DNA from: Molanna angustata
Lineage: Eukaryota; Arthropoda; Insecta; Trichoptera; Molannidae
DNA length: 64,000 bases
Direction of reading: 5' to 3'
Assembly (NCBI GenBank): GCA_963576475.1
Contig: OY754972.1
Location: 7,025,427-7,089,426, forward strand
How positions within the stretch are numbered: the first letter of the stretch is position 1; each line of letters opens with the position of its first letter. A model generated the notes under the pieces. It saw only the letters and a list, made by a program, of their open reading frames with translations. It did no database searches and was not told where the DNA came from. Made by a program: the position numbers and the translations under genes. This document shows positions 44,461 to 57,979 of this stretch, piece by piece.

Positions 44461-44847
44461 AAAGTATAAAGATATGTTTAAATAATGTTTGTCTGTTTAG
44501 GCTGTGTTTCTCGAACAAAGATTAAAGTAAAAGTATAGTTAAAATACTTTGATTTCATAAAGTTATTCAAAAGTTTCATTAAAATATAATGCTGTCAAAC
44601 AACGCATTTTTGAACATTTTCATGAAATCAAAGCATTTTAACTATATTATTACCGTTACTTTTTTTGAAACAACCCAGTCTTAGTATGTTTAAATTTGAT
44701 TAAATATTTTCCAAACAAAGAAGACAAAAATATCTTTATGTCAATAAACTTTCATAAAAATATAATGCACGCTATATTTTTCATGATTTACAACCATAAA
44801 GCTGCATTTATAAAGAACTGTATACTGATTGTAAATATTTTTTTTAC

Positions 44848-45111
44848 CTGCAAATAGCTACGGCCGGAATCCACAAGACAGACGCTAAAACTAAGAATAC
44901 TATTAGGAGCACCGCCCAAACGGGCCAAGGTCTCTTCTCCGTGATGCCAGTCGCTGAAACCCATGCAGCATAGCCAGATCCCTCGGTGGCGATCTCCACG
45001 AAGGAAGCCACCAGGATGCTCAGCATGGCCAGAGGTGACAGGTACTTCCAGCACACCAACCAGTACAGGCCTGGACGCTGACCGGTCATTAGTTCTATGT
45101 CATCGGCAAAC
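44848..45111 (-). CDS. SLC6 transporter exon (TM11-TM12)
   Basis: 264 bp between acceptor TTATTCCAG and donor GTAAAA on the minus strand. Phase 2 at both ends. Encodes FADDIELMTGQRPGLYWLVC, the TM11 segment WKYLSPLAMLSILVASFVEI, an extracellular loop with GSGYAAWVSATGI, and TM12 PVWAVLLIVFLVLASVLWIP. W-K-Y-x-S-P-L is typical of the NTT4/B0AT subgroup of sodium-coupled neurotransmitter/amino-acid transporters. Confidence 0.93.
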
Positions 45112-45151
45112 CTGGAATAAGTTAGATGTCTATATATACATTTTTTTATGA

Positions 45152-45235
45152 CTAGTTGCATATAACACATGAGATCCAACTGTCGATGGCCACAGCATGT
45201 ATACTCATAGTGTAAGAATACGTAAAATTCCATGT
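45152..45235 (-). mobile_element. Helitron-like terminus fragment in SLC6 intron
   Basis: CTAGTTGCATATAACACATG, AGATCCAACTGTCGATGG matches the 3' tip of the Helitron-like family, again with T after CTAG on the minus strand. Only about 80 bp is kept. Confidence 0.65.
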
Positions 45236-45588
45236 ATGTTATAAATAAACGAATGGCTAGAACAATTTGAGGAATATTTATATTTGGGGAGTATGTTAGA
45301 TATTGAAAGAAGAATTATGGCAGGAAATAGAATAAACGGAGCACTCAGACCGGTAATGTCCGATCCAAGCATCTCAAAGGAAGCCAAAATTGCAGTACAC
45401 AATACAATTGTAGTGCCTACTTTGACGTATGCCAGTGAAACATGGACCTGGCAAAAGCCACATGAAAGTAGAATAAATGCTGTAGAAATGAGATCACTAA
45501 GAAGAGTATGTAATTGAACGATATATGATAGAATAAAAAATGAGGACATAAGGAGAGAATGCAAGATAAAGAAGGATAGGATAGGATA

Positions 45589-46394
45589 CAGTAGAATCCG
45601 TTTATTACGACTTCGTTTATAACGTCCAACCGTTTTTAGCGACGTAAATGGCGTAACTAGGTAGGTTTCATACAGACACACTATGAAAACATATCCGTAT
45701 AATACGACTCCGGTTTGTGCGACCAACTGCTTTTAGCGACCTTATTTTATAATAAATTGTCCGGTTAAAACAATGCACATCATTTTGTTTACATTAACTA
45801 CGCACAAATAATGCCTCGCCACCCCGCGTCCCGGCTTTCTCCTCTCTCCAATGCACGTGGATTGGCACACATAAATCACAGTATCACAGTCAGTTAGTAT
45901 ATTTCAACTATCGATAAGGTGGACACGTAACGCGCACTAAAATGAGTTCTGCGAAGCAAAATTGTTTCTCAATTGGAGATAAATGTGCAATAATACATCG
46001 TTTAGAAGGTGGTGAATCTAATGTAACCCTTGCAAAGGAACTTGGTGTGCCTCATTCTACAATATGCACCATAAAAAAATAAACATAAAATAGAACCCCT
46101 GTTTAATGTCAATGTTTTGAAACCTAAATGTGTGAGGGCATCCACTCAAGAACAAGTAGATCAATTATCATTAAAGTTTTAATATATGTTTAATTACCAT
46201 TAAAGTTTAACATATGTTAGAATTTGTTTTATTTTCATAGAAATTAATAGAATTGTACTTACACTACAGTAATATTAATACGTATGTATGTAATAAAAAA
46301 ACAAGCTAAATTATCCAATCGTTTTATACATCGTCCGGTTAGTAGGACATAATTTCGCCGGTCCCTTGAAGGTCGTTTTATCCAAATTCTACTG
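45589..46394 (+). mobile_element. pogo/Tigger-like DNA transposon, internally deleted
   Basis: Ends CAGTAGAATCCGTTTATTAC and (inverse of the right) CAGTAGAATTTGGATAAAAC. TA duplication on both sides (45587-45588, 46395-46396). CAGTA tips with TA duplication are typical of the pogo/Tigger group of Tc1/mariner. Carries the start of a transposase (see 45942-46082). Most of the DDE region is missing. It lies inside a LINE which itself lies in an SLC6 intron. Confidence 0.9.
45942..46082 (+). pseudogene. pogo-type transposase N-terminus (CENP-B/psq helix-turn-helix)
   Basis: 46 codons then TAA: MSSAKQNCFSIGDKCAIIHR, LEGGESNVTLAKELGVPHST, ICTIKK. This is a CENP-B N-terminal-type DNA-binding helix-turn-helix (K-x-x-I-I-x-x-x-E-x-G...A-K-x-x-G-V-x-x-S-T-I). 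The frame breaks right after it. Confidence 0.8.
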
Positions 46395-46883
46395 TATATG
46401 TAAAATGAAAGTGAATGCCTTGATGTGGTTTGGACATATTGAAAGAATGAACAATGAACGACTGACTAAAAAAATATACATGGGTGTAAGAGATGGAATG
46501 AATAGCAGGGGTCGCCCCAGAAAGGGATGACATGACCATGTGAATGATATTTTGAAAGAAGGAAACATAAAAAGTTTGAATAATCGACGAGCATGTATGA
46601 GACGATGCATGGATGTAAAGGAAGCCAGAAATGTGTGCAAAAATAGAGAAGTATGGCGCTCGGTTCTCTCTGCTTACCCCGTAAGGGACATGGCGTGATG
46701 GTATGTATGTATGTTATAAATAAAAGTACCAAACTATAAAACCTTAAATCCAAATTATTGAATATATTAAATTATTTTGTTTTCAACCAAACTAAAATAT
46801 CCCTGCTGTGAAAACAAATATTCATATTCTACATGGTTCCATCAATACAAAACCTGCAAAAAAAATTAAAAAGTAAGGCTTAC

Positions 46884-47245
46884 CTCTTCAAGCCGTACAC
46901 GTATGACACTCCGATGCATTCAAAGAAGGCGATGATTAATAGAGGAAAATTTCCACTGTACATGTCAAACAGAAGAAAGACATAGCTGCCAGCTCCGTGG
47001 GCGAAACCCATGGAGAGCAGACAGCACATCAGACAGAGGCCCCCCGTGAGGTACTCCTTGCGCAGGTTCGGAAACAGCTTCATATCCACTATGGACGTGA
47101 CCACTCCCTCCAACGTGCCAAACTGGGAGTCTATTCCGAGGGTAAACAGCATTAGGAAGAAAAGGACGGACCAGAATTGAGCACCGGGAAATTGATTAAT
47201 TGCTTCGGTAAATATGATGAATGCCAGACCGGTACCAGCAGCAGA
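46884..47245 (-). CDS. SLC6 transporter exon (TM8-TM10)
   Basis: 362 bp between acceptor TTATCTTTCCAG and donor GTAAGC. Begins in phase 0 and ends phase 2. Encodes SAAGTGLAFIIFTEAINQFP (extracellular loop 4), FWSVLFFLMLFTLGIDSQFG (TM8 with the S-x-F-G-T-x-E-G motif), KEYLTGGLCLMCCLLSMGFA (TM9) and FPLLIIAFFECIGVSYVYGL (TM10). The A-G-T-G-L-A-F-x-x-F-T-E-A signature places it in the SLC6 family. Confidence 0.95.
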
Positions 47246-47439
47246 CTGGAAAGATAAGAATGTTATTATTTAATCAATACAGTTATTGCATTATAAAATG
47301 TTTCAAATGAATTAAAACAAATTAAACAGATTTTAAACCTTGGTGGAGTAAATATAACAAAAAATGCATATCTTAATCTAAATTGGTGTATAGTTTATTT
47401 TGATATAATGATCAAAATTGTTTCAATTATATATATTCG

Positions 47440-47800
47440 TCCTTTTCCTCATGACTGAGGATAGCGGCTGCAGTCCGTCACCACACGTATGGCCCGCCTC
47501 CATGCCAATCTGTTTTGGGCTGAACGCAGAGCACCAGTCACCGAAGACCCCATTGTGGACTAAACCAAATGCTCCATCTGGTCTGTGAACGACCACGAGA
47601 TCTCTGTCCTTCCACGCTGTCCATCACAACAAGCTTCTCGAGGCAGTCTGGTTCCCTTCTGGCAATGTGTCCAAAGAATTGAAGGATACGTCAGTAACAT
47701 ATCATTGATAGACGATCCTCGATCTTCAGCTCGTCTAGAATTGACACATTCATTCTTTTGGCTGTCCATGGGATGTGCAACATACGCCTCCAGGATAAAA
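47440..47800 (-). mobile_element. LINE 3' fragment in SLC6 intron
   Basis: Minus-strand translation includes a W-R-R-x-x-R-V-V-T-D-C-type tail and RSAQNRLAWR. GC-rich against the surrounding intron. 5'-truncated. Confidence 0.6.
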
Positions 47801-48673
47801 TTATCATACACAACAAAAGAGAATGCAGACAGAATATTGAGAAAATTCCAAAAAATGGTATTAAATTCTTTAAAAATCACAAAATATACCAGAAAATACC
47901 AAAAATTTGATAAAAACTAAAAAAAAATACCAAACGTGCTCCAAAGAGGCGAAAAAAAATATGAATTTAGTACTAAAAATACTAAAAACGGTCACATTGA
48001 ACGCCAAACTCCTGTTAACCACAGACGTGTCAAAAACCATAGAGAAAATAGACGGTTAGCATTTAATCGTGTATTGAAATAGTGGGCATTAGTTTCCCTT
48101 TACATATATTTGTTTTTATTTTCAAGTGATTCCCTCATCAAGCACAAGATTTAAATCTCTTTGATGATGTATTGCAACAATTTCACTTCAGTAAATATTA
48201 TGTGTCATGTAAATTTATGTTGTAATATTATAAAACAATAAATAATGTTAAATAAATAATAATTAAAAGAAAAGACAAAAAAATAACAAATTATTACAGA
48301 GTTTTGATTTATATTGAAGGACAATTTAACAAAAAGTTATCCTTGAAATAAACTGAAATTATTTTTTCAGAAATATTTTATACCCATTAACAATGTATAT
48401 TGATTTTTGTTTTGTTATTTTCTTTATTATTCGTGTGATGCAAGAATGACATTGCAAAATATTTCCTGCAAAACCCTTATCAAAAATAGATTAAACATTT
48501 CATTTGAATATACATATTTATATCAATTACAAAAATAAGCAAATGATACAGGCCCATCAGCAATAGCTGCCTGCCTGTTAACTAATAATAATAATAATAA
48601 TATTTATATCAATGGTAAAGAAACTGCTAAATATTTTTCAAAATCTACAATTGGTAACAATGTATTTACTCAC
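47801..48673. other. Rest of SLC6 intron
   Basis: AT-rich. Holds an (AAT)n microsatellite near 48587-48605. No gene. Confidence 0.5.
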
Positions 48674-49348
48674 ATTATCAAGTTCCTTTTGAAGATCACA
48701 CTCTTTGAGGTGTGGCATTATCACAGCATCGATTCCTCCGGCAGTGTTGGTAACATTCACTATAGAACCTTCTGCGGGAAGTCTATGGGGATCGTAGTTG
48801 GGTCCAAGGATCCCCACCAAAGTCAGATTTCTCGACTCTAAACACTTTTCGTGGACCATTGTCGCCTTGAAGCCAATCACAGAAAACACAACAATGCCGG
48901 CAAACATGGACGTTAAACAGTTGGTCAAAGAGACCATTATGGCGTCTCTGTAGCAGTTGTTGTTCACAGGGTTGTAAGACGAAAATGCTATCAATCCACC
49001 AAACGCCAGACCCAGGGAGAAAAAGATCTGAGTGCCGGCTTCCAACCAGACCACAGGGTCAAGAATCTTGTGCCAACTTGGAGTGATGAAATGCAGCAGC
49101 CCGTCGCCCATCCCCTTCAGGGATATCCCTCGGAAGAAAAAGATCACAAGAACGATGTAGGGGAATGTGGCTGTGACGTAGACAACTTTGCCGGATGAAG
49201 CGATTCCTTTGATCATGCACATGTAAACAAGGATCCAAGCGATGACCAGAGCTATTCCGATCTTCCAGTTGAATGCTTCGGGAGTGTTGATGTCTTCAGA
49301 CACCATCAACGTTGTACGATACCAAAAGTATTGCGTTGGACTGCTTGC
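48674..49348 (-). CDS. SLC6 transporter exon (EL2 to TM7), 5'-most exon found
   Basis: 675 bp (225 codons, phase 0 at both ends) between acceptor TTTTTTTTCCAG and donor GTGAGT on the minus strand. Encodes PTQYFWYRTTLMVSEDINTP, TM4 (WKIGIALVIAWILVYMCMIK), GIASSGKVVYVTATFPYIVL (TM5), the TM6 motif FFSLGLAFGGLIAFSSYN, NNNCYRDA, and TM7. Y-F-W-Y-R-x-T-L and A-F-S-S-Y-N-P-x-N-N-N-C resemble the vertebrate SLC6A15-A20 (NTT4/B0AT) group and insect relatives, which move neutral amino acids with sodium across the plasma membrane. TM1-TM3, with the main sodium and substrate sites, must be encoded upstream (higher coordinates). I could not find those exons in the window. Confidence 0.95.
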
Positions 49349-49442
49349 CTGGAAAAAAAATAATCTTGTGAATTTTATTTAATTTCATAGGGCATATAAA
49401 TCTAAAGATTGCATTTTTAAAAAGCAATCTCAAATAAGTTAA

Positions 49443-49786: not shown

Positions 49787-50775
49787 AGTATTTTCAACAT
49801 ATCTCTAGTTAATGTTCGTCACACAATTTTAAAATTCGGCAAAAATGATTAAAATATCCTTTTTTACAGCATTTTTATACAGTACTACATAACTATAAGT
49901 CGAGAAATGAACATTCTATAAAATCAAAGTTAATGACCGTTAAAAGCTTTTCCATTTCAAGTCAGGATTGTTCTTAATGCAAAAAATTAATAACATTGGT
50001 TCCGAAATGGAATTTAAATCATGTATAAACCCTTTTTAACGCACGCGAAAGTCACCCTTACTAAATCATGCTTTTGATGGCGTTATAAGCCCTCTTAAAC
50101 AATCGTGTGATATATTTATCATATTCTTAAAGAAAAGGATATGTGTATGAAAATACTAAATTTAAAATTTAAGGAATATTTCAAATGGAAAAAAATAAAC
50201 ATCTCTATAATTCAGTTAGAAAATAACATAATTCATAATTCAATGATCATGAGAAATAAAAATATCAGCATTAAAGCCAGTATTTTTCAATAGAATTTAA
50301 AGTACTTTAATATATCTCTTGGAAACGACATACCTACAGGGATAATTCAAAGGAGTTTATAACATTATTTTATTGCAACTGTAAAAGGTTTATTTATGAT
50401 AAAATAACTAATTATATAATCAGTTTATTATATAATTTAATTTTAAAGTCATCTTTCCTTGGAGCCAAGGTAACAAAAAGCTGTTCAAAATTGCAAAGTG
50501 CTGAATTTGTGTTTATTTTTTTGTATGGAATTTGGCGTTTGTCAGAGAGCGGTGCCCAATACCTTAGGCATTTAATGTTCTTTTGTAAGATTGTAACCTT
50601 AATTATGAAGGTGAGAGGGATACTAAATTAACGACATTAACAATTGAACTGAAATAATTTCTCTCCATTCATCTTGTCACAAACAAGCCGCGTCTTAATT
50701 GTCTTCCAATTGTAAAACATTAATGAGCAAGAGTGTAAGGGCGGGCCTTCATCATTATTCAAGGTTAATTATTTA
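49787..50775. other. AT-rich DNA, no gene seen
   Basis: I looked here for the missing upstream SLC6 exon and saw none. Confidence 0.45.
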
Positions 50776-51315
50776 AACTTGATAATTAGTCAATGTCATT
50801 TCATGAAAGTGATGTGCCTTTTTAACAATTTTGATTTAATATTATATCATGAAAACTTGATAATTAGTCAATGTCATTTCATGAAAGTGATGTGCCTTTT
50901 TAACAATTTTGATTTAATATTATATCATGAAAACTTGATAATTAGTCAATGTCATTTCATGAAAGTGATGTGCCTTTTTAACAATTTTGATTTAATATTA
51001 TATCATGAAAACTTGATAATTAGTCAATGTCATTTCATGAAAGTGACGTGCCTTTTTAACAATTTTGATTTAATATTATATCATGAAAACTTGATAATTA
51101 GTCAATGTCATTTCATGAAAGTGATGTGCCTTTTTAACAATTTTGATTTAATATTATATCATGAAAACTTGATAATTAGTCAATGTCATTTCATGAAAGT
51201 GATGTGCCTTTTTAACAATTTTGATTTAATATTATATCATGAAAACTTGATAATTAGTCAATGTCATTTCATGAAAGTGACGTGCCTTTTTAACAATTTT
51301 GATTTAATATTATAT
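50776..51315. repeat. 78-bp satellite array, left part (7 units)
   Basis: Unit AACTTGATAATTAGTCAATG, TCATTTCATGAAAGTGATGT, then GCCTTTTTAACAATTTTGAT, TTAATATTATATCATGAA. Seven units, nearly identical, with a GATG/GACG variant in two of them. The period is 26 codons, so one frame stays open throughout by chance. The last unit is cut by the retrotransposon after TATAT. Confidence 0.95.
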
Positions 51316-51515
51316 TGTTATGAAATTAAGTACTATTTCTATTTAAATTGAAAATTTAAATAGAAATATTTTGAAAATAAGAACCCAAGAAAAATGAAAA
51401 CAAAAGATTTGAGTAGTGAGTTGGAAAAACTAGACAAACCTTGTAAAAATATAAATTGTAAAAATAAATAAGACTTTGAACCATAATAAAATAAATAAAT
51501 ATAAATTTCGGTACA
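51316..51515 (+). repeat. 5' LTR
   Basis: 200 bp, TG...CA, base-for-base the same as 57016-57215. Contains a perfect 15-bp-arm hairpin (51335-51349 with 51353-51367) and AATAAA motifs near the 3' end that could serve polyadenylation. Confidence 0.97.
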
Positions 51516-51517
51516 TT

Positions 51518-51534
51518 TGGTGTCAGGTGTGGGG
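51518..51534 (+). promoter_or_regulatory. Candidate tRNA primer-binding site
   Basis: TGGTGTCAGGTGTGGGG starts two bases after the LTR. It would pair with a tRNA 3' end ...UGACACCA, as in some tRNA-Leu species. The tRNA identity is inferred. Confidence 0.65.
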
Positions 51535-51602
51535 TATAAAAATACCCAAGTATTTTTTTGTGTAAGAAAAAAATAAAATAGTTATTTATAAAGACATTTA
51601 TT

Positions 51603-52802
51603 ATGGCATCAAAAAAAATAACTCTTTTAGAGTTGAAAGTGGTTGATTTAAAACATGAGTTGGAGGAGAGAGACGCTGATACATCAGGAAATAAAAATGC
51701 ACTTCAACTACGATTGAGAAAAGTGATGCAAGAAGTAGGTGAGGATCCAGACACATACCTTTTTGAAATGCCTTGCTCTAACAACGATCTTTGTCAAGTC
51801 TTAAAAGAACATTCCAGAGACATAGAAGAGAAGTTTCAAGAACATTCCAGAGATATAAAAGGAGAAATTAAAGAAATCAAAGGAGAAGTAGCGATGCTTC
51901 AAAAGCATTCAAATACTATAGAAAAGAAATTCCAGAATTATTCTATGACCTTTGATGAGAAGATAAATGAATTAACTAAACAGATGAAAGTTTTGGAGAA
52001 TCAAATGCTTCCTTCAATCACGCCAATGAATTCCGAGCAAAATTCAGCTGTAGATACAAATTTTAAGTGTGTAGAAGATACAAGAGTACCAACAGTGGAG
52101 TGCGTGCGAAATGATATGCCAACCTTTGATGGAAAATTCCCCTGGGAAGAATATTTAACATTGTTCGAGACAGTGGCCATGATAAATGGCTGGTCCATGA
52201 CAAGAAAGGCCTCAGTGTTGAGTGTATCATTACGAGGTGATGCTTTAAAAGTTTTGGAGACAATTCCTCTAGCTGAGCGACGAGATTTAAAATTGTTGAT
52301 TGAGAGACTTGAGATGCGATTTGGACATAAGCACATGGAACAGTTTTACAGGTCACAACTTAAGAATCGTAATCAGAAATCTAATGAAACTCTCCAGGAA
52401 TTTGAGGCGGATATAGCGCGTCTAATTAGATATGCATACCCTACGGTTCCTGATGATGTGTGTGAAAGCCTTGCAGTAGAAAAGTTCTTGGATGGATTGT
52501 GGGCAAATGAGACACAACAAGCTGTAAAACTAGCTAGACCACAAACTTTGAGTGACGCTCTAACCCAGGCACTCGAATTTGAATCTATAAAAAAATCTTT
52601 ACGAGGTCATGCTCAAGCCCGCGTTGTTGAGGCCGTTGAAGAGAATCAAAAACTCATCGAATGCATTGTCGAAAAGGTGATGAAGGCATTGCAAGGAAGA
52701 AAAAGACAGTTTCGCTGCTGGGGTTGTGGACGAGCTGGACATCTACGTAATCGGTGTCCAAATGAAGCAACAACGCATCAGCAACAGCCACAGGAAAACT
52801 AA
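51603..52802 (+). CDS. gag: Gag polyprotein with N-terminal SAP-like segment and CCHC zinc knuckle
   Basis: 399 codons from ATG. Residues about 8-42 (LELKVVDLKHELEERDADTS, then GNKNALQLRLRK) fit the SAP DNA-binding helix-turn-helix pattern (L-x-x-x-D-L-K-x-E-L-x-x-R...G-x-K-x-x-L-x-x-R-L). Residues about 70-135 are heptad-like and charged, likely coiled coil. From about 173 (MPTFDGKFPWEEYLTLFE) comes the capsid-like retrotransposon gag domain, and at 372-385 the zinc knuckle CWGCGRAGHLRNRC (C-x2-C-x4-H-x4-C) that binds RNA. It forms the particle and packages the RNA. Ends at TAA, overlapping the open pol frame. Confidence 0.95.
   Translation: MASKKITLLELKVVDLKHELEERDADTSGNKNALQLRLRKVMQEVGEDPDTYLFEMPCSNNDLCQVLKEHSRDIEEKFQEHSRDIKGEIKEIKGEVAMLQKHSNTIEKKFQNYSMTFDEKINELTKQMKVLENQMLPSITPMNSEQNSAVDTNFKCVEDTRVPTVECVRNDMPTFDGKFPWEEYLTLFETVAMINGWSMTRKASVLSVSLRGDALKVLETIPLAERRDLKLLIERLEMRFGHKHMEQFYRSQLKNRNQKSNETLQEFEADIARLIRYAYPTVPDDVCESLAVEKFLDGLWANETQQAVKLARPQTLSDALTQALEFESIKKSLRGHAQARVVEAVEENQKLIECIVEKVMKALQGRKRQFRCWGCGRAGHLRNRCPNEATTHQQQPQEN
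52793..52802 (+). promoter_or_regulatory. Likely -1 frameshift region between gag and pol
   Basis: Gag ends ...GGAAAACTAA. The pol frame (-1) is open from before this point and has no ATG near its start. GGAAAAC before the stop is not a canonical X-XXY-YYZ heptamer, but A-AAC can slip to AAA. Downstream GGG-rich sequence may help. Mechanism inferred. Confidence 0.5.
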
Positions 52803-52828
52803 AAAGGGTTGATGGGAAGGGGCAACTG

Positions 52829-55800
52829 TTGACCTACATTACCAATGCCTCAAAGAGATCTGCAGTTGTTGCATCATTCAGTGGTCGAGATACCAGTATG
52901 TTTATAAATGGCAAAGTAAATGGAAAGAATTTGAAACTTTTGCTGGATACTGGAGCAACGATGACAATCATGAGACCAGATTTGCTTTATAACAAAAAGT
53001 GTATTACACCAACTAAATGGACATTACGAACAGCTACTGGGGAGTCGGCATCTATATGTGGTGAGACATATGCCAACTTTCAAATTGGTAGTTCTATCTT
53101 CGATCATCAGGTGCTAGTGGCGAATATAGAGGAGGAAGTTATTCTCGGAATGGACATAATGGCGAAATATGGATTCCAGTTGGATCTAAAGAGGCGATCT
53201 TTGAAAATTGGAGATGAAGATGTTCTCGTGCAAGAGCGTGAGGAATTTTCTACACGTGTTCTTGCAGCGGATGTTGTAACTATTCCAAAACAAAGTGAGA
53301 TGTTAGTACGAGTCAATTTAGACTGTGTTATCCCGAATGGACATGTTTTGGTTGTGGAGTCCAACGCCAACAATGAAGCAGGAAAAGGAGTATTAATTGC
53401 AAGAGCACTGATTCAAAACCAAAAGGAAATTTTAGTCAGATTAATGAACATAAATGAATATCCAGTAACTGTCAAAAAAGGAGCTTATTTAAGTGTGTGT
53501 TCATCAGTTTCATCAGTAACACAAAATGCCTGCATCGCACAAGTTTCTTCAGAGGATGTACCAAAACATCTTGAAGACTTTGTAAAAGATGCTTGTAAGG
53601 AACTTACCAAAGAACAAAGCAAACAAATTAGATACCTCATTGCTCATTATCAAGATGTTTTTGAGAATGCGAGTCTTTCTAAAGGAAGAACCAATGTTGT
53701 TCAACATCAAATAGATACGGGTGACGCAAGGCCTATCCGCCAATTACCTAGAAGGCTACCATTAGCAAAGCGGGCGGAAGCAGATCAAATTATTCAAGAC
53801 ATGGAAAGGGATAGCGTTATTGAACCATCAAGCAGCCCATGGTGTTCACCAGTAGTGTTAGTTAAAAAAAAAGATGGCTCAACTCGGTTCTGTGTGGACT
53901 TTCGCTTATTGAATAATGTAACTAAGAAGGATAGTTATCCACTGCCTCGAATCGATGACACCCTAGATACATTGGCTGGTTGTAAGATCTTCTCAACTTT
54001 GGATCTAAAGAGTGGTTATTGGCAGGTTGGATTGGAACCCAAGGATAGAGAAAAAACGGCGTTTTCTGTAGAAAGTGGATTGTGGCAATTCAAAGTGATG
54101 CCATTTGGACTTTGCAATGCACCGGCTACGTTTGAACGACTAATGGAAAGTGTGCTAAGAGGATTATCGTGGGAGACCTGTTTGGTATACTTAGATGACA
54201 TCATCGTACTTGGGAAGCGTTTTGAAGAACATTTAGGAAATTTGGAACAGGTATTTTCACGATTGAGGTCGGCCAACCTTAAACTCAATTGCAAGAAATG
54301 TATATTGTTCCGAAAGCAAGTCAACTATCTAGGTCATGTTGTCTCTGAGGAGGGAGTAGCAGTAGATCCTGAGAAGATTAAAGCTGTTCGAGATTGGCCA
54401 GTACTTAAAGACAAACATGAAGTAAGAAGCTTTTTGGGTCTGAGTACCTACTATCGACGATTTGTTCCAGGCTTTGCTGACATCGCAAAGCCACTGACAA
54501 AACTCACGGAGGAAAGCAGTGAATTCATATGGGATTTCAAGTGCCAACATGCATTTGAAGAATTAAAACAGGTTCTAATTAATTCTCCGGTTTTGAGTTA
54601 TCCTCGAGCTGAAGGAATGTTTATTCTGGATACAGATGCAAGTAACGTTGGTATCGGAAGTGTGCTCTCCCAAGTACAAGATGGGGCAGAACGCGTGATT
54701 GCTTACTTCAGTAAAGTATTGTCGAAACCAGAACGCAATTACTGTGTAACACGAAGAGAATTGCTTGCTGTTATCAAGTCAGTTGAGCACTTTCGCAAGT
54801 ATTTATATGGACGGAAATTTCTTTTAAGGACAGATCACTCGGCACTTGTGTGGCTTTTGCGATTCAAGAATCCTGAAGGTCAAGTGGCAAGATGGATAGA
54901 GAGATTGCAAGAATATGACTATGATTCTGAACATCGAGCCGGACTTCATCATAGAAATGCCGATGCACTGTCAAGGCGACCATGTCCAGAGGATTGCCAG
55001 CACTGTAATAAGGCTGAGGAAAAGTTTTTTATAGCTTGTAGAACCACGGTCGTTGACAATTTTTGGCAAGATGATGAAATACGAGCAGACCAATTGGAAG
55101 ACCCAGATCTCAAGTTTGTAATGCAGTGGAAGGAAAATGATCAAAGACCTTTATGGGAAGAAATAGCTTCACTATCTCCAAATATTAAGTCATACTGGGC
55201 TCAGTGGCAATCCATTGTCGTGGAAAATGGGTTGTTAAAGCGTGTATTGGAGAATGAAGATGGAACACAGCAGAGACAACAACTATTGATTCCAAGGAAG
55301 AGAATTCCTGAAGTTCTTAAACTGCTTCACAATGATGTGTCTGGGGGACACTTGGGAGTTAAAAAAACCACAGAAAAAATTCGTCAACGTTTTTATTGGG
55401 TCAATTACAATGGAGATGTAAAAGATTGGTGTAGAAGATGTGTAACTTGTGCCACTTCAAACGGACCTCAGAAACGAAGGCGTGCGCCAATGAGGCAGTA
55501 TAATGTTGGTAGCCCATTTGAAAGGATAGCCATTGACATAGCGGGGCCGTTTCCCACAACGGAAAGAGGGAATAAATATATTCTGGTAGCAATGGACTAT
55601 TTTAGTAAATGGACAGAAGCCTATGCACTACCGAATCAAGAAGCTACCACTGTTGCTGAAGTCTTGGTAAGGGAACTGATAAGTCGTTTTGGAGTACCAT
55701 TGGAGTTACACTCGGACCAGGGAAGAAACTTTGAATCAGCTGTATTCCAGGGAATTTGTGAAGCATTAGGAATTCGAAAGACGAGAACAACTGCTTTGCA

Positions 55801-57004
55801 TCCACAGTCGGATGGAATGGTGGAGCGAATGAATCGAACAATTGGAAGATTTTTGTCAAAAGCAGTGTCCGATCACCAGAAGGATTGGGACGAATACATC
55901 CACTTGTTCTTATTAGCTTATCGAGCAGCAATTCATGAGACAACAGGGCAAACACCGGCAAGTGTGATTTTTGGCCGTGAGTTACGGTTACCTTGCGACC
56001 TGCAGTATGGATCTAAGCCTGGAGAAGATCTAGTTGGAGAAGATTATGTGTCAGATCTTCGGAGGAAAATGAATGCTATACATGACCGTGTACGGTCCAA
56101 TATTCAAGTAGCTAGTGACAAGATGAAGGAGCGATACGACATTAAAGCTGTGGAAGGTGGTTATCAGGCTGGAGACTTGGTTTGGTTATTTAATCCACAA
56201 CGACGACGAGGCTACTCACCAAAGCTTCAGAAATCCTGGGAAGGACCGTATGAAGTGATCAAAAGGATTAATGATGTGGTTTATCGTATACGAAGAAAAC
56301 CAAATGGGAAGCCAAGAGTGGTACATTTCAATCGCCTGGCTCCCTTTTTAGGTGATAACAAGGATGAGAAAAAAAATCCAGTTGCTCAAGTTTGCAATGT
56401 CCAAAGTGAAGAAAAGACCTTCGAGGAATTCATGATGACTCCTTATCGACGCACTCGCCATGGTGTGACTGTGGAAATTGAGCAAGACCTCTTCGATATC
56501 CCAGAAGATAATGTTTTAGCTTACTGTGTGGCTCAAGACATGAAGATGACTAGTGGTATAGCCAAAGTTATCATGAGAAAGTATGGGATGTTATATGAGC
56601 TAAAAGCCAAGAATCTGAAGATTGGAGAAGCGGTCCATTCACAGCATGGAAAACAGCATTTATTCTACATGACGAATAAGGAAACGTCTGAGGAACGAGC
56701 AGAGTATGCTCAGATGTGGAACTGTCTACGAAGTATGCGGGATCAAATGTTACAGTTGAATCTTATGAAGCTCGGCATTCCAAAGATCAGTGATGGTATG
56801 GATTGGAAAGTGGTTCGGAATATGATAGAAGAGATTTTTCATAATACTGGAATTAATGTTCTAGTTTGCTGCTATAATCCAAGATACAGTAAAAATATAA
56901 AAAAAAGTGTACCATGTTACTTTTTCAAAGCATCTCACTGTAGAGAAGGTTCAAAATGCCGATTTATTCATCTAGAGAATTCTGTTCGGGACGAACTGAA
57001 CTAA
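52829..57004 (+). CDS. pol: Pol polyprotein: PR-RT-RH-IN plus macrodomain and CCCH finger
   Basis: 1391 codons counted from a TTG at 52829; real translation probably enters by -1 frameshift from gag. Protease: LLLDTGATMT (DTG at 40-42) and VILGMD (about 104-109). Reverse transcriptase: FCVDFRLLNN at 354 and YLDD at 454-457. RNase H: LDTDASNVGIGS from Asp601. Integrase: His834 to Cys871/Cys874 zinc region, catalytic Asp903, Asp963 and Glu999 with the D-x59-D-x35-E spacing, and a GPY module at 1139-1141. These steps copy the RNA to DNA and insert it. After the integrase there is an extension of about 200 residues: a macrodomain (1213-1349) and a CCCH finger (1363-1381). No stop or frameshift is seen. 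The element lacks env. Confidence 0.97.
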   Translation: MTYITNASKRSAVVASFSGRDTSMFINGKVNGKNLKLLLDTGATMTIMRPDLLYNKKCITPTKWTLRTATGESASICGETYANFQIGSSIFDHQVLVANIEEEVILGMDIMAKYGFQLDLKRRSLKIGDEDVLVQEREEFSTRVLAADVVTIPKQSEMLVRVNLDCVIPNGHVLVVESNANNEAGKGVLIARALIQNQKEILVRLMNINEYPVTVKKGAYLSVCSSVSSVTQNACIAQVSSEDVPKHLEDFVKDACKELTKEQSKQIRYLIAHYQDVFENASLSKGRTNVVQHQIDTGDARPIRQLPRRLPLAKRAEADQIIQDMERDSVIEPSSSPWCSPVVLVKKKDGSTRFCVDFRLLNNVTKKDSYPLPRIDDTLDTLAGCKIFSTLDLKSGYWQVGLEPKDREKTAFSVESGLWQFKVMPFGLCNAPATFERLMESVLRGLSWETCLVYLDDIIVLGKRFEEHLGNLEQVFSRLRSANLKLNCKKCILFRKQVNYLGHVVSEEGVAVDPEKIKAVRDWPVLKDKHEVRSFLGLSTYYRRFVPGFADIAKPLTKLTEESSEFIWDFKCQHAFEELKQVLINSPVLSYPRAEGMFILDTDASNVGIGSVLSQVQDGAERVIAYFSKVLSKPERNYCVTRRELLAVIKSVEHFRKYLYGRKFLLRTDHSALVWLLRFKNPEGQVARWIERLQEYDYDSEHRAGLHHRNADALSRRPCPEDCQHCNKAEEKFFIACRTTVVDNFWQDDEIRADQLEDPDLKFVMQWKENDQRPLWEEIASLSPNIKSYWAQWQSIVVENGLLKRVLENEDGTQQRQQLLIPRKRIPEVLKLLHNDVSGGHLGVKKTTEKIRQRFYWVNYNGDVKDWCRRCVTCATSNGPQKRRRAPMRQYNVGSPFERIAIDIAGPFPTTERGNKYILVAMDYFSKWTEAYALPNQEATTVAEVLVRELISRFGVPLELHSDQGRNFESAVFQGICEALGIRKTRTTALHPQSDGMVERMNRTIGRFLSKAVSDHQKDWDEYIHLFLLAYRAAIHETTGQTPASVIFGRELRLPCDLQYGSKPGEDLVGEDYVSDLRRKMNAIHDRVRSNIQVASDKMKERYDIKAVEGGYQAGDLVWLFNPQRRRGYSPKLQKSWEGPYEVIKRINDVVYRIRRKPNGKPRVVHFNRLAPFLGDNKDEKKNPVAQVCNVQSEEKTFEEFMMTPYRRTRHGVTVEIEQDLFDIPEDNVLAYCVAQDMKMTSGIAKVIMRKYGMLYELKAKNLKIGEAVHSQHGKQHLFYMTNKETSEERAEYAQMWNCLRSMRDQMLQLNLMKLGIPKISDGMDWKVVRNMIEEIFHNTGINVLVCCYNPRYSKNIKKSVPCYFFKASHCREGSKCRFIHLENSVRDELN
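56465..56875 (+). other. OARD1/TARG1-like macrodomain at the Pol C-terminus
   Basis: Pol residues 1213-1349. Seen: EQDLFDIPEDNVLAYCVAQD, MKMTSGIAKVIMRKYG, LKIGEAV, HLFYMTNKE, GIPKISDGMDW, VRNMIEEIFHNTGINVLVCC. The order and spacing follow the TARG1 (OARD1) class of macrodomain, which removes ADP-ribose from modified glutamate and from O-acetyl-ADP-ribose. Residues aligned with the human catalytic Lys84 and Asp125 are Lys1284 and Asp1325, both present. The usual M-G-A-G-I-A loop reads M-T-S-G-I-A, and I-G-C-G reads I-S-D-G. A 3-residue gap follows the Asp. Alignment made by eye against the known family; activity is inferred. Confidence 0.88.
56915..56971 (+). other. CCCH zinc finger at the Pol extreme C-terminus
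   Basis: Pol residues 1363-1381: CYFFKASHCREGSKCRFIH, i.e. C-x7-C-x5-C-x3-H, the CCCH class that binds RNA in proteins such as ZAP/PARP13, tristetraprolin and muscleblind. Basic residues (S-K-N-I-K-K-S) precede it. Only about ten residues follow before the stop. Confidence 0.85.
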
Positions 57005-57015
57005 GAGGGAGGCAG
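57003..57015 (+). promoter_or_regulatory. Polypurine tract
   Basis: AAGAGGGAGGCAG lies directly before the 3' LTR and overlaps the pol stop. It primes plus-strand DNA synthesis. Confidence 0.85.
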
Positions 57016-57215
57016 TGTTATGAAATTAAGTACTATTTCTATTTAAATTGAAAATTTAAATAGAAATATTTTGAAAATAAGAACCCAAGAAAAATGAAAA
57101 CAAAAGATTTGAGTAGTGAGTTGGAAAAACTAGACAAACCTTGTAAAAATATAAATTGTAAAAATAAATAAGACTTTGAACCATAATAAAATAAATAAAT
57201 ATAAATTTCGGTACA
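57016..57215 (+). repeat. 3' LTR
   Basis: Identical over 200 bp to the 5' LTR, including the 15-bp-arm hairpin. Confidence 0.97.
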
Positions 57216-57747
57216 ATATCATGAAAACTTGATAATTAGTCAATGTCATTTCATGAAAGTGATGTGCCTTTTTAACAATTTTGATTTAATATTATATCAT
57301 GAAAACTTGATAATTAGTCAATGTCATTTCATGAAAGTGACGTGCCTTTTTAACAATTTTGATTTAATATTATATCATGAAAACTTGATAATTAGTCAAT
57401 GTCATTTCATGAAAGTGATGTGCCTTTTTAACAATTTTGATTTAATATTATATCATGAAAACTTGATAATTAGTCAATGTCATTTCATGAAAGTGACGTG
57501 CCTTTTTAACAATTTTGATTTAATATTATATCATGAAAACTTGATAATTAGTCAATGTCATTTCATGAAAGTGATGTGCCTTTTTAACAATTTTGATTTA
57601 ATATTATATCATGAAAACTTGATAATTAGTCAATGTCATTTCATGAAAGTGATGTGCCTTTTTAACAATTTTGATTTAATATTATATCATGAAAACTTGA
57701 TAATTAGTCAATGTCATTTCATGAAAGTGATGTGCCTTTTTAACAAT
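57216..57747. repeat. 78-bp satellite array, right part (7 units)
   Basis: Continues the 50776-51315 array after the retrotransposon, starting ATATCATGAAAACTTG. Seven units, GATG/GACG variants alternating at first. Ends within a unit after AACAATTTG. Joined, the original array would hold about 14 units. Confidence 0.95.
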
Positions 57748-57979
57748 TTGAAAATAAAAATATCAAATTTTATGTTTCCTGAGCTTGGGTTCACTTTGAA
57801 ATATTTCAAAATTGAAAAACACTGATCAGATATCCTTGAAAATCTAATGGGGTCTAAGAGAGTATTAAATATGTATATGTACAAATTCTCAAAATTTGAA
57901 AAAAATTGAATGAGTAGTTAATTTAGTCTACAATCGATAAAATAGAATAAACACACCGTACATAGCACACAGATGCATT

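Follow-up and report, generated by a model that had tools for sequence, protein, structure and literature searches.

Analysis of the window, a 64,000-nucleotide stretch of the genome of the insect Molanna angustata, identified a complete Ty3/gypsy element (51316-57215) whose Pol polyprotein continues beyond the integrase into a TARG1-class macrodomain and a CCCH zinc finger. Related elements carry the same arrangement. We propose that in this insect Ty3/gypsy lineage the Pol-end macrodomain, which is predicted to strip ADP-ribose placed by host PARPs, likely lifts PARP-dependent silencing, a proposal that we judge to have about as much against it as for it. Viruses are known to counter PARP defences with macrodomains. 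If the proposal is correct, a conserved clade of LTR retrotransposons with an eraser in Pol makes ADP-ribosylation part of the conflict between transposons and their hosts. The vague idea that PARP silences transposons would then become testable through one small domain, its natural active-site variants and its losses between close relatives. Our search of the open-access literature, outside which most subscription papers lie, found no description of a Ty3/gypsy clade with a Pol-fused TARG1-class domain and a CCCH finger.

A complete Ty3/gypsy element with an extended Pol

As expected of a Ty3/gypsy element, paired LTRs, a target-site duplication and candidate priming sites were all present, and all lie on the forward strand. 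The 200-bp LTRs (5', 51316..51515, TGTT...TACA; 3', 57016..57215) are identical at 200/200 bases. A primer-binding-site candidate (TGGTGTCAGGTGTGGGG, 51518..51534) and a polypurine-tract candidate abutting the 3' LTR (57003..57015) were assigned from their sequence. The element is flanked by a 78-bp tandem repeat (50775-51315 and 57216-57749, ~7 copies per side, 99% match). The repeat continues on both sides of the insertion, so the uninterrupted repeat represents the empty site and supports the 4-bp duplication ATAT at 51312..51315 and 57216-57219. A preference for this satellite as target was not supported: when both strands were compared with it for 60 pieces fetched from other copies, a single piece, L043, shared 14-mers (6 of the repeat's). 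Exons of an SLC6-type sodium:neurotransmitter symporter (PF00209 positions 150-519) lie on the reverse strand at 44844-49375 of the window. No N-terminal exon of this gene was recognised by motif within the window, so the element may sit in an intron of the SLC6-type gene.

The gag frame (51603..52802) encodes a SAP domain near its N terminus, which scored 31.8 bits and above the Pfam cut-off, as well as a Ty3 capsid-like stretch and a C-terminal CCHC knuckle, both below cut-off. SAP (PF02037) was also listed for several macrodomain-bearing relatives from Aromia moschata, and may characterise the lineage. The pol frame (52829..57004, 1391 aa) is open from 52766 and overlaps gag in the -1 frame. 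Its Pfam domains follow the Ty3/gypsy order: aspartic protease (residues 26-111, 52904..53161, PF13975), reverse transcriptase (345-504, 53861..54340, PF00078), RNase H (568-696, 54530..54916, PF17919/PF17917), and an integrase comprising an H2C2 zinc domain (821-878) and catalytic core (896-989; together 55289..55795, PF17921/PF00665). The integrase C-terminal module (1139-1172, 56243..56344, PF22938) had been labelled "GPY" in an earlier reading of the sequence alone. Beyond it are the macrodomain (1217-1346, 56477..56866), assigned by sequence, family alignment and structure comparison, and a CCCH zinc finger of the form C-x7-C-x5-C-x3-H (C1363-H1381, 56915..56971), for which PF00642 scored 21.4 bits when the C-terminal piece was searched. 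No chromodomain after the integrase was seen among Pfam matches to E 1, and there was no env frame between the end of pol (57004) and the start of the 3' LTR (57016).

The extension is a TARG1-class macrodomain

The sequence-only reading had proposed, by eye, that this Ty3/gypsy Pol is fused to a TARG1-like macrodomain, and the fusion is now borne out by sequence, relatives and fold, each with significant matches. TARG1 was the closest solved macrodomain to the window domain by sequence as well as by structure. The model of the window domain superposed on TARG1 (PDB 4j5r, 4j5s) at 1.0 A over 138 residues, and TARG1 was the top structural match; the possibility, raised earlier, that the predicted fold might not be that of a macrodomain was thereby answered. 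The domain of one relative, P0004, matched TARG1 with an E-value of 7e-40 and 47% identity, and most family members retain 35-47% identity to the human protein. The structure model of another relative, P0012, was poor overall (pLDDT 67, pTM 0.33) and supports no claim made here.

A failure of profile searches to find the domain had also been foreseen as evidence against the assignment. This did happen in one case: the Pfam Macro model had no significant match to the window copy, whereas comparisons by sequence, through relatives and by fold were all significant. Reliance on that model alone would have left the domain of the window copy unrecognised. NCBIfam gave only a weak DarG match, at 15.3 bits against a cut-off of 250.

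The active-site pair is conserved, but the window copy has a shortened loop

Residues were mapped through an alignment of 42 element domains with TARG1, with human numbering taken as the index in the 4j5r chain plus 6, an offset fixed by the Lys and Asp named in PMC5087735. That source, as far as its available text goes, describes Lys84 as the ligand- or ADP-ribose-binding residue and Asp125 as the hydrolysis residue; PMC9411070, in the part available, treats the two as a catalytic dyad. The counterpart of Lys84 is Lys1284 (56678..56680), as first proposed. The counterpart of Asp125 is Asp1322 (56792..56794) in the family alignment, in which P0002 above all favours this placement, and not Asp1325 as had been suggested; Asp1325 aligns with Gln128. 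The gap in the pairwise alignment of the window domain with TARG1 falls after Asp1325, which accounts for the earlier choice.

With the truncated rows P0025 and P0028 set aside, 40 complete domains remain. In these, the Lys84 counterpart is Lys in 38 and the Asp125 counterpart is Asp in 38; both are present in 37/40, and in 22 of 25 clusters formed at 80% identity. One or both residues have been lost in P0018, P0019 and P0021. The counterparts of Lys84, Asp125, Asp20, Gly43 and Pro118 are each kept in 23 to 25 of the 25 clusters, which are more than 20% apart.

The phosphate-binding loop just before Asp1322 is more variable. It is full length in 37/40 complete domains but varied in sequence, reading GCGL in 11/40 and ASGL in 13 near-copies, and in the window copy and P0001 three residues of the GCGL loop are gone. 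The suggestion that the domain may be active thus holds better for the relatives than for the window copy, in which the substrate loop is shortened and hydrolysis is consequently doubtful for the whole window subfamily. The domain of this subfamily may be weak, altered or on its way out. Within a family that is itself convincing, the window copy ranks among the weaker examples.

The family has amplified recently

The M. angustata genome assembly comprises 994.8 Mb in 131 contigs. Copies were scored best-first, which makes the resulting counts lower bounds biased toward perfect copies: at least 150 genomic copies were found among 545 candidates, with the 192-residue cassette of macrodomain and zinc finger unchanged in 150/150 scored, and 84 of these 150 contained the exact 1412-aa frame. 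LTRs were checked in 20 of the 84 full-frame copies, chosen for spread over contigs. The LTR pair was readable in 14, the other six being unreadable with a simple LTR motif; ten pairs had no mismatch, three had one and one had two. AT-rich target-site duplications of 4 or 5 bp flanked 13 of the 14. The identical LTR pairs and the duplications together indicate that the family amplified recently. The identity of the 150 copies reflects this burst and the way in which copies were scored, best first; it does not point to selection on the domain. When the genome was queried with human TARG1, the best 150 of 483 candidates all showed 30-31% identity, and the 12 that were fetched were copies of the element.

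Less perfect copies also exist (L049-L060). L008 and L056 have an intact macrodomain and change frame inside the CCCH part. Frames of 1392 and 1402 aa recur among the copies; L056 was the one examined. L008 seemingly contains a second, inverted copy, and at the L007/L008 locus (G000:C9:21778531-21787813) a primer-binding-site-like leader follows the L007 LTR, as in tandem elements that share an LTR.

The cassette was most simply captured once and lost repeatedly

When proteins were searched with pol residues 780-1391, there were 1448 matches, the best 120 of which were examined. The macrodomain was present in 42/122 proteins (the window, P0001 and 40 of the best 120 of 1448 matches), a proportion that is no frequency, as the ranking favours macrodomain-bearing proteins. 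Organism names accompanied 20 of the 40 listed carriers, and 17 of these were beetles: 13 Aromia moschata, three Callosobruchus maculatus and one Molorchus minor. The other three named carriers (P0007, P0009 and P0016) were assigned to Erysiphe pulchra (two) and Klebsiella pneumoniae (one), and probably represent insect DNA contaminating those assemblies. A CCCH finger followed the macrodomain in 30/42 rows by regular expression; the other 12 include some truncated rows, and six of them (P0006, P0009, P0017, P0020, P0023 and P0026) form one clade. A search with the C-terminal region alone (149 candidates) produced no pol-length fusions, probably owing to a shortage of shared exact words; the wider query described above did recover them. 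The viral and prokaryote contigs that we scanned for the domain held no relative.

An integrase tree of 90 rows was built after dropping 15 rows with fewer than 250 aligned query positions and 17 domain-less near-copies. The 27 remaining carriers fell within one 30-row clade (SH-aLRT 99), in which three rows without a macrodomain (P0010, P0029 and P0032) were nested. A more careful tree of 44 chosen rows recovered the same clade at 100/99, and four changes were needed to explain the distribution of the domain. An exclusive clade of carriers without the three domain-less rows was rejected (AU p 0.00036). Change counts alone do not separate gain from loss; since the domain is absent from all rows outside the clade, the simplest history is one gain followed by three losses. 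With the carriers in one clade and the losses nested inside it, the distribution is most simply read as one old capture of the cassette, as the sequence-only reading had thought worth checking.

The losses include the closest relative of the window element. P0010 has 92% integrase identity to the window and lacks the whole cassette: its pol end runs from ...LAPFKGD directly to SARDEQN; in the window, the cassette intervenes and is followed by SVRDELN. The tail of P0029 may be a frame-changed remnant.

Macrodomain and integrase distances were correlated across 24 elements (r 0.60; 0/9999 permutations as high), which fits vertical descent of the two domains together. The macrodomain has evolved faster overall (mean distance 0.52, versus 0.29 for the integrase). 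When divergence is taken relative to the integrase, the window's macrodomain ranks first of the 24 by residual, followed by P0018 and P0021, both of which have lost active-site residues.

What the macrodomain may do

The mechanism that we propose has three steps. Host PARPs would place ADP-ribose on the element's proteins, on nucleic acid or on chromatin; the macrodomain would remove it and so lift PARP-dependent silencing; and the CCCH finger, by binding nucleic acid, would recruit the eraser to the RNA or DNA of the element or to its integration complex. Hydrolase activity, its substrate, the link to silencing and nucleic-acid binding by the finger are all predictions that we infer. The case for an eraser rests on the conserved Lys/Asp pair, on flies lacking PARP-1 and on the precedents described below. 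According to the available text of PMC7712786, eight mobile elements were significantly misregulated in Drosophila without PARP-1, five up and three down, and ten more rose short of the FDR limit, nine of them of the gypsy superfamily; its authors allow that the rise may be indirect. Counted against an eraser are the loop deletion and fastest divergence of the window copy, the faster evolution of the macrodomain than of the integrase across the family, the loss of the domain from P0010 and the two other nested losses, as well as the active-site losses in 3/40 complete domains and the varied loop before the Asp.

The same domain could instead be a reader that binds ADP-ribosylated chromatin and steers or helps integration, which we regard as possible but doubtful. 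In chromoviruses a chromodomain follows the integrase C terminus, and the macrodomain occupies this very place, directly after the integrase C-terminal module. The window subfamily, moreover, proliferated with the fold kept and the catalytic loop altered, as a reader could. The available part of PMC5087735 describes ALC1, a macrodomain of the same branch, as binding PAR at DNA damage, and with Lys84 assigned there to ADP-ribose binding, conservation of this lysine alone does not favour an eraser. Against a reader, the counterpart of Asp125, the hydrolysis residue and dyad partner of Lys84 (PMC5087735, PMC9411070, as far as these sources were available), is kept in 38/40 domains. Nor was a special target seen: the duplications are AT-rich, and satellite 14-mers were confined to L043 among the 60 pieces.

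We think a passenger role unlikely, in which the cassette would be a single captured piece of the host, inherited under weak selection and repeatedly lost. Such a history would accommodate the three nested losses, including that of the window's sister P0010, the fast divergence and loop deletion of the window lineage, the 3/40 active-site losses and the copies with a frame change in the zinc-finger part. An unselected domain of 130 residues would nevertheless not be expected to keep five residues in 23 to 25 of 25 clusters, or most members to retain their 35-47% identity to human TARG1. It is very improbable that the domain serves only the element's own polyprotein or particle (in processing, stability or, with the CCCH finger, RNA packaging) and has no part in host ADP-ribosylation; its position within Pol and the adjoining finger in 30/42 rows would suit such a role, but the kept TARG1-type active-site pair would be left unexplained, and the clade retains members that lack the cassette. 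A host exon joined by chance, or a misassembly, can be dismissed, as P0001, on a short contig of another data set, has the same pol-macrodomain junction and is 98% identical, and the domain recurs in 40 listed relatives and in at least 150 places in the genome.

Returning to an eraser, we offer a more detailed version only tentatively: a beetle-associated Ty3/gypsy clade would carry a zinc-finger-guided eraser of silencing PARP marks, the retrotransposon equivalent of the macrodomains of viruses, and the window subfamily's copy would be turning into a weak reader, or being discarded, while the subfamily amplifies.

Comparison with known systems

The element domain shares its class, its fold and the counterparts of Lys84 and Asp125 with human terminal ADP-ribose protein glycohydrolase (TARG1, also OARD1 or C6orf130). 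It differs in forming the C-terminal part of Pol with a CCCH finger behind it and, in the window copy, in its shortened loop. Domain-less Ty3/gypsy relatives, several of them labelled "transposon 412" Pol, belong to the same integrase family, and many have RDEQ-like pol ends; most end a few residues past the integrase module, whereas in the window the cassette lies between this module and the terminal RDELN before the polypurine tract. Chromoviruses also have an extra domain past the integrase C terminus, but by Pfam it is not a chromodomain here.

Alphavirus nsP3 and rubella virus, like the window element, have a macrodomain fold in a parasitic element, and some insect-associated viruses matched the domain model well. 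By E-value, Kadipiro virus VP8 was the first viral structural match and five thrips-associated viruses (flavi-, negev- and virga-like) were in the first twelve, with alphaviruses behind, though some viral matches superposed with a large rmsd. The matches suggest that parasites of insects have made use of TARG1-like domains repeatedly.

Retroelements with a macro domain have been described before: fish Epsilon-like endogenous retroviruses have macro-domain ORFs (PMC4977317, available in part, citing Basta et al. 2009). These too acquired a macro domain, but, compared by description only, they belong to a vertebrate lineage and carry it in additional ORFs. The available text of PMC9289625 reports that Ty3/gypsy elements of orchids fixed an AlkB m6A demethylase, for which RNA demethylase activity was shown and host surveillance discussed. 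The orchid elements are likewise Ty3/gypsy elements with a mark-removing enzyme; theirs is a plant system with the enzyme in an additional ORF, whereas the window element has a predicted eraser within Pol.
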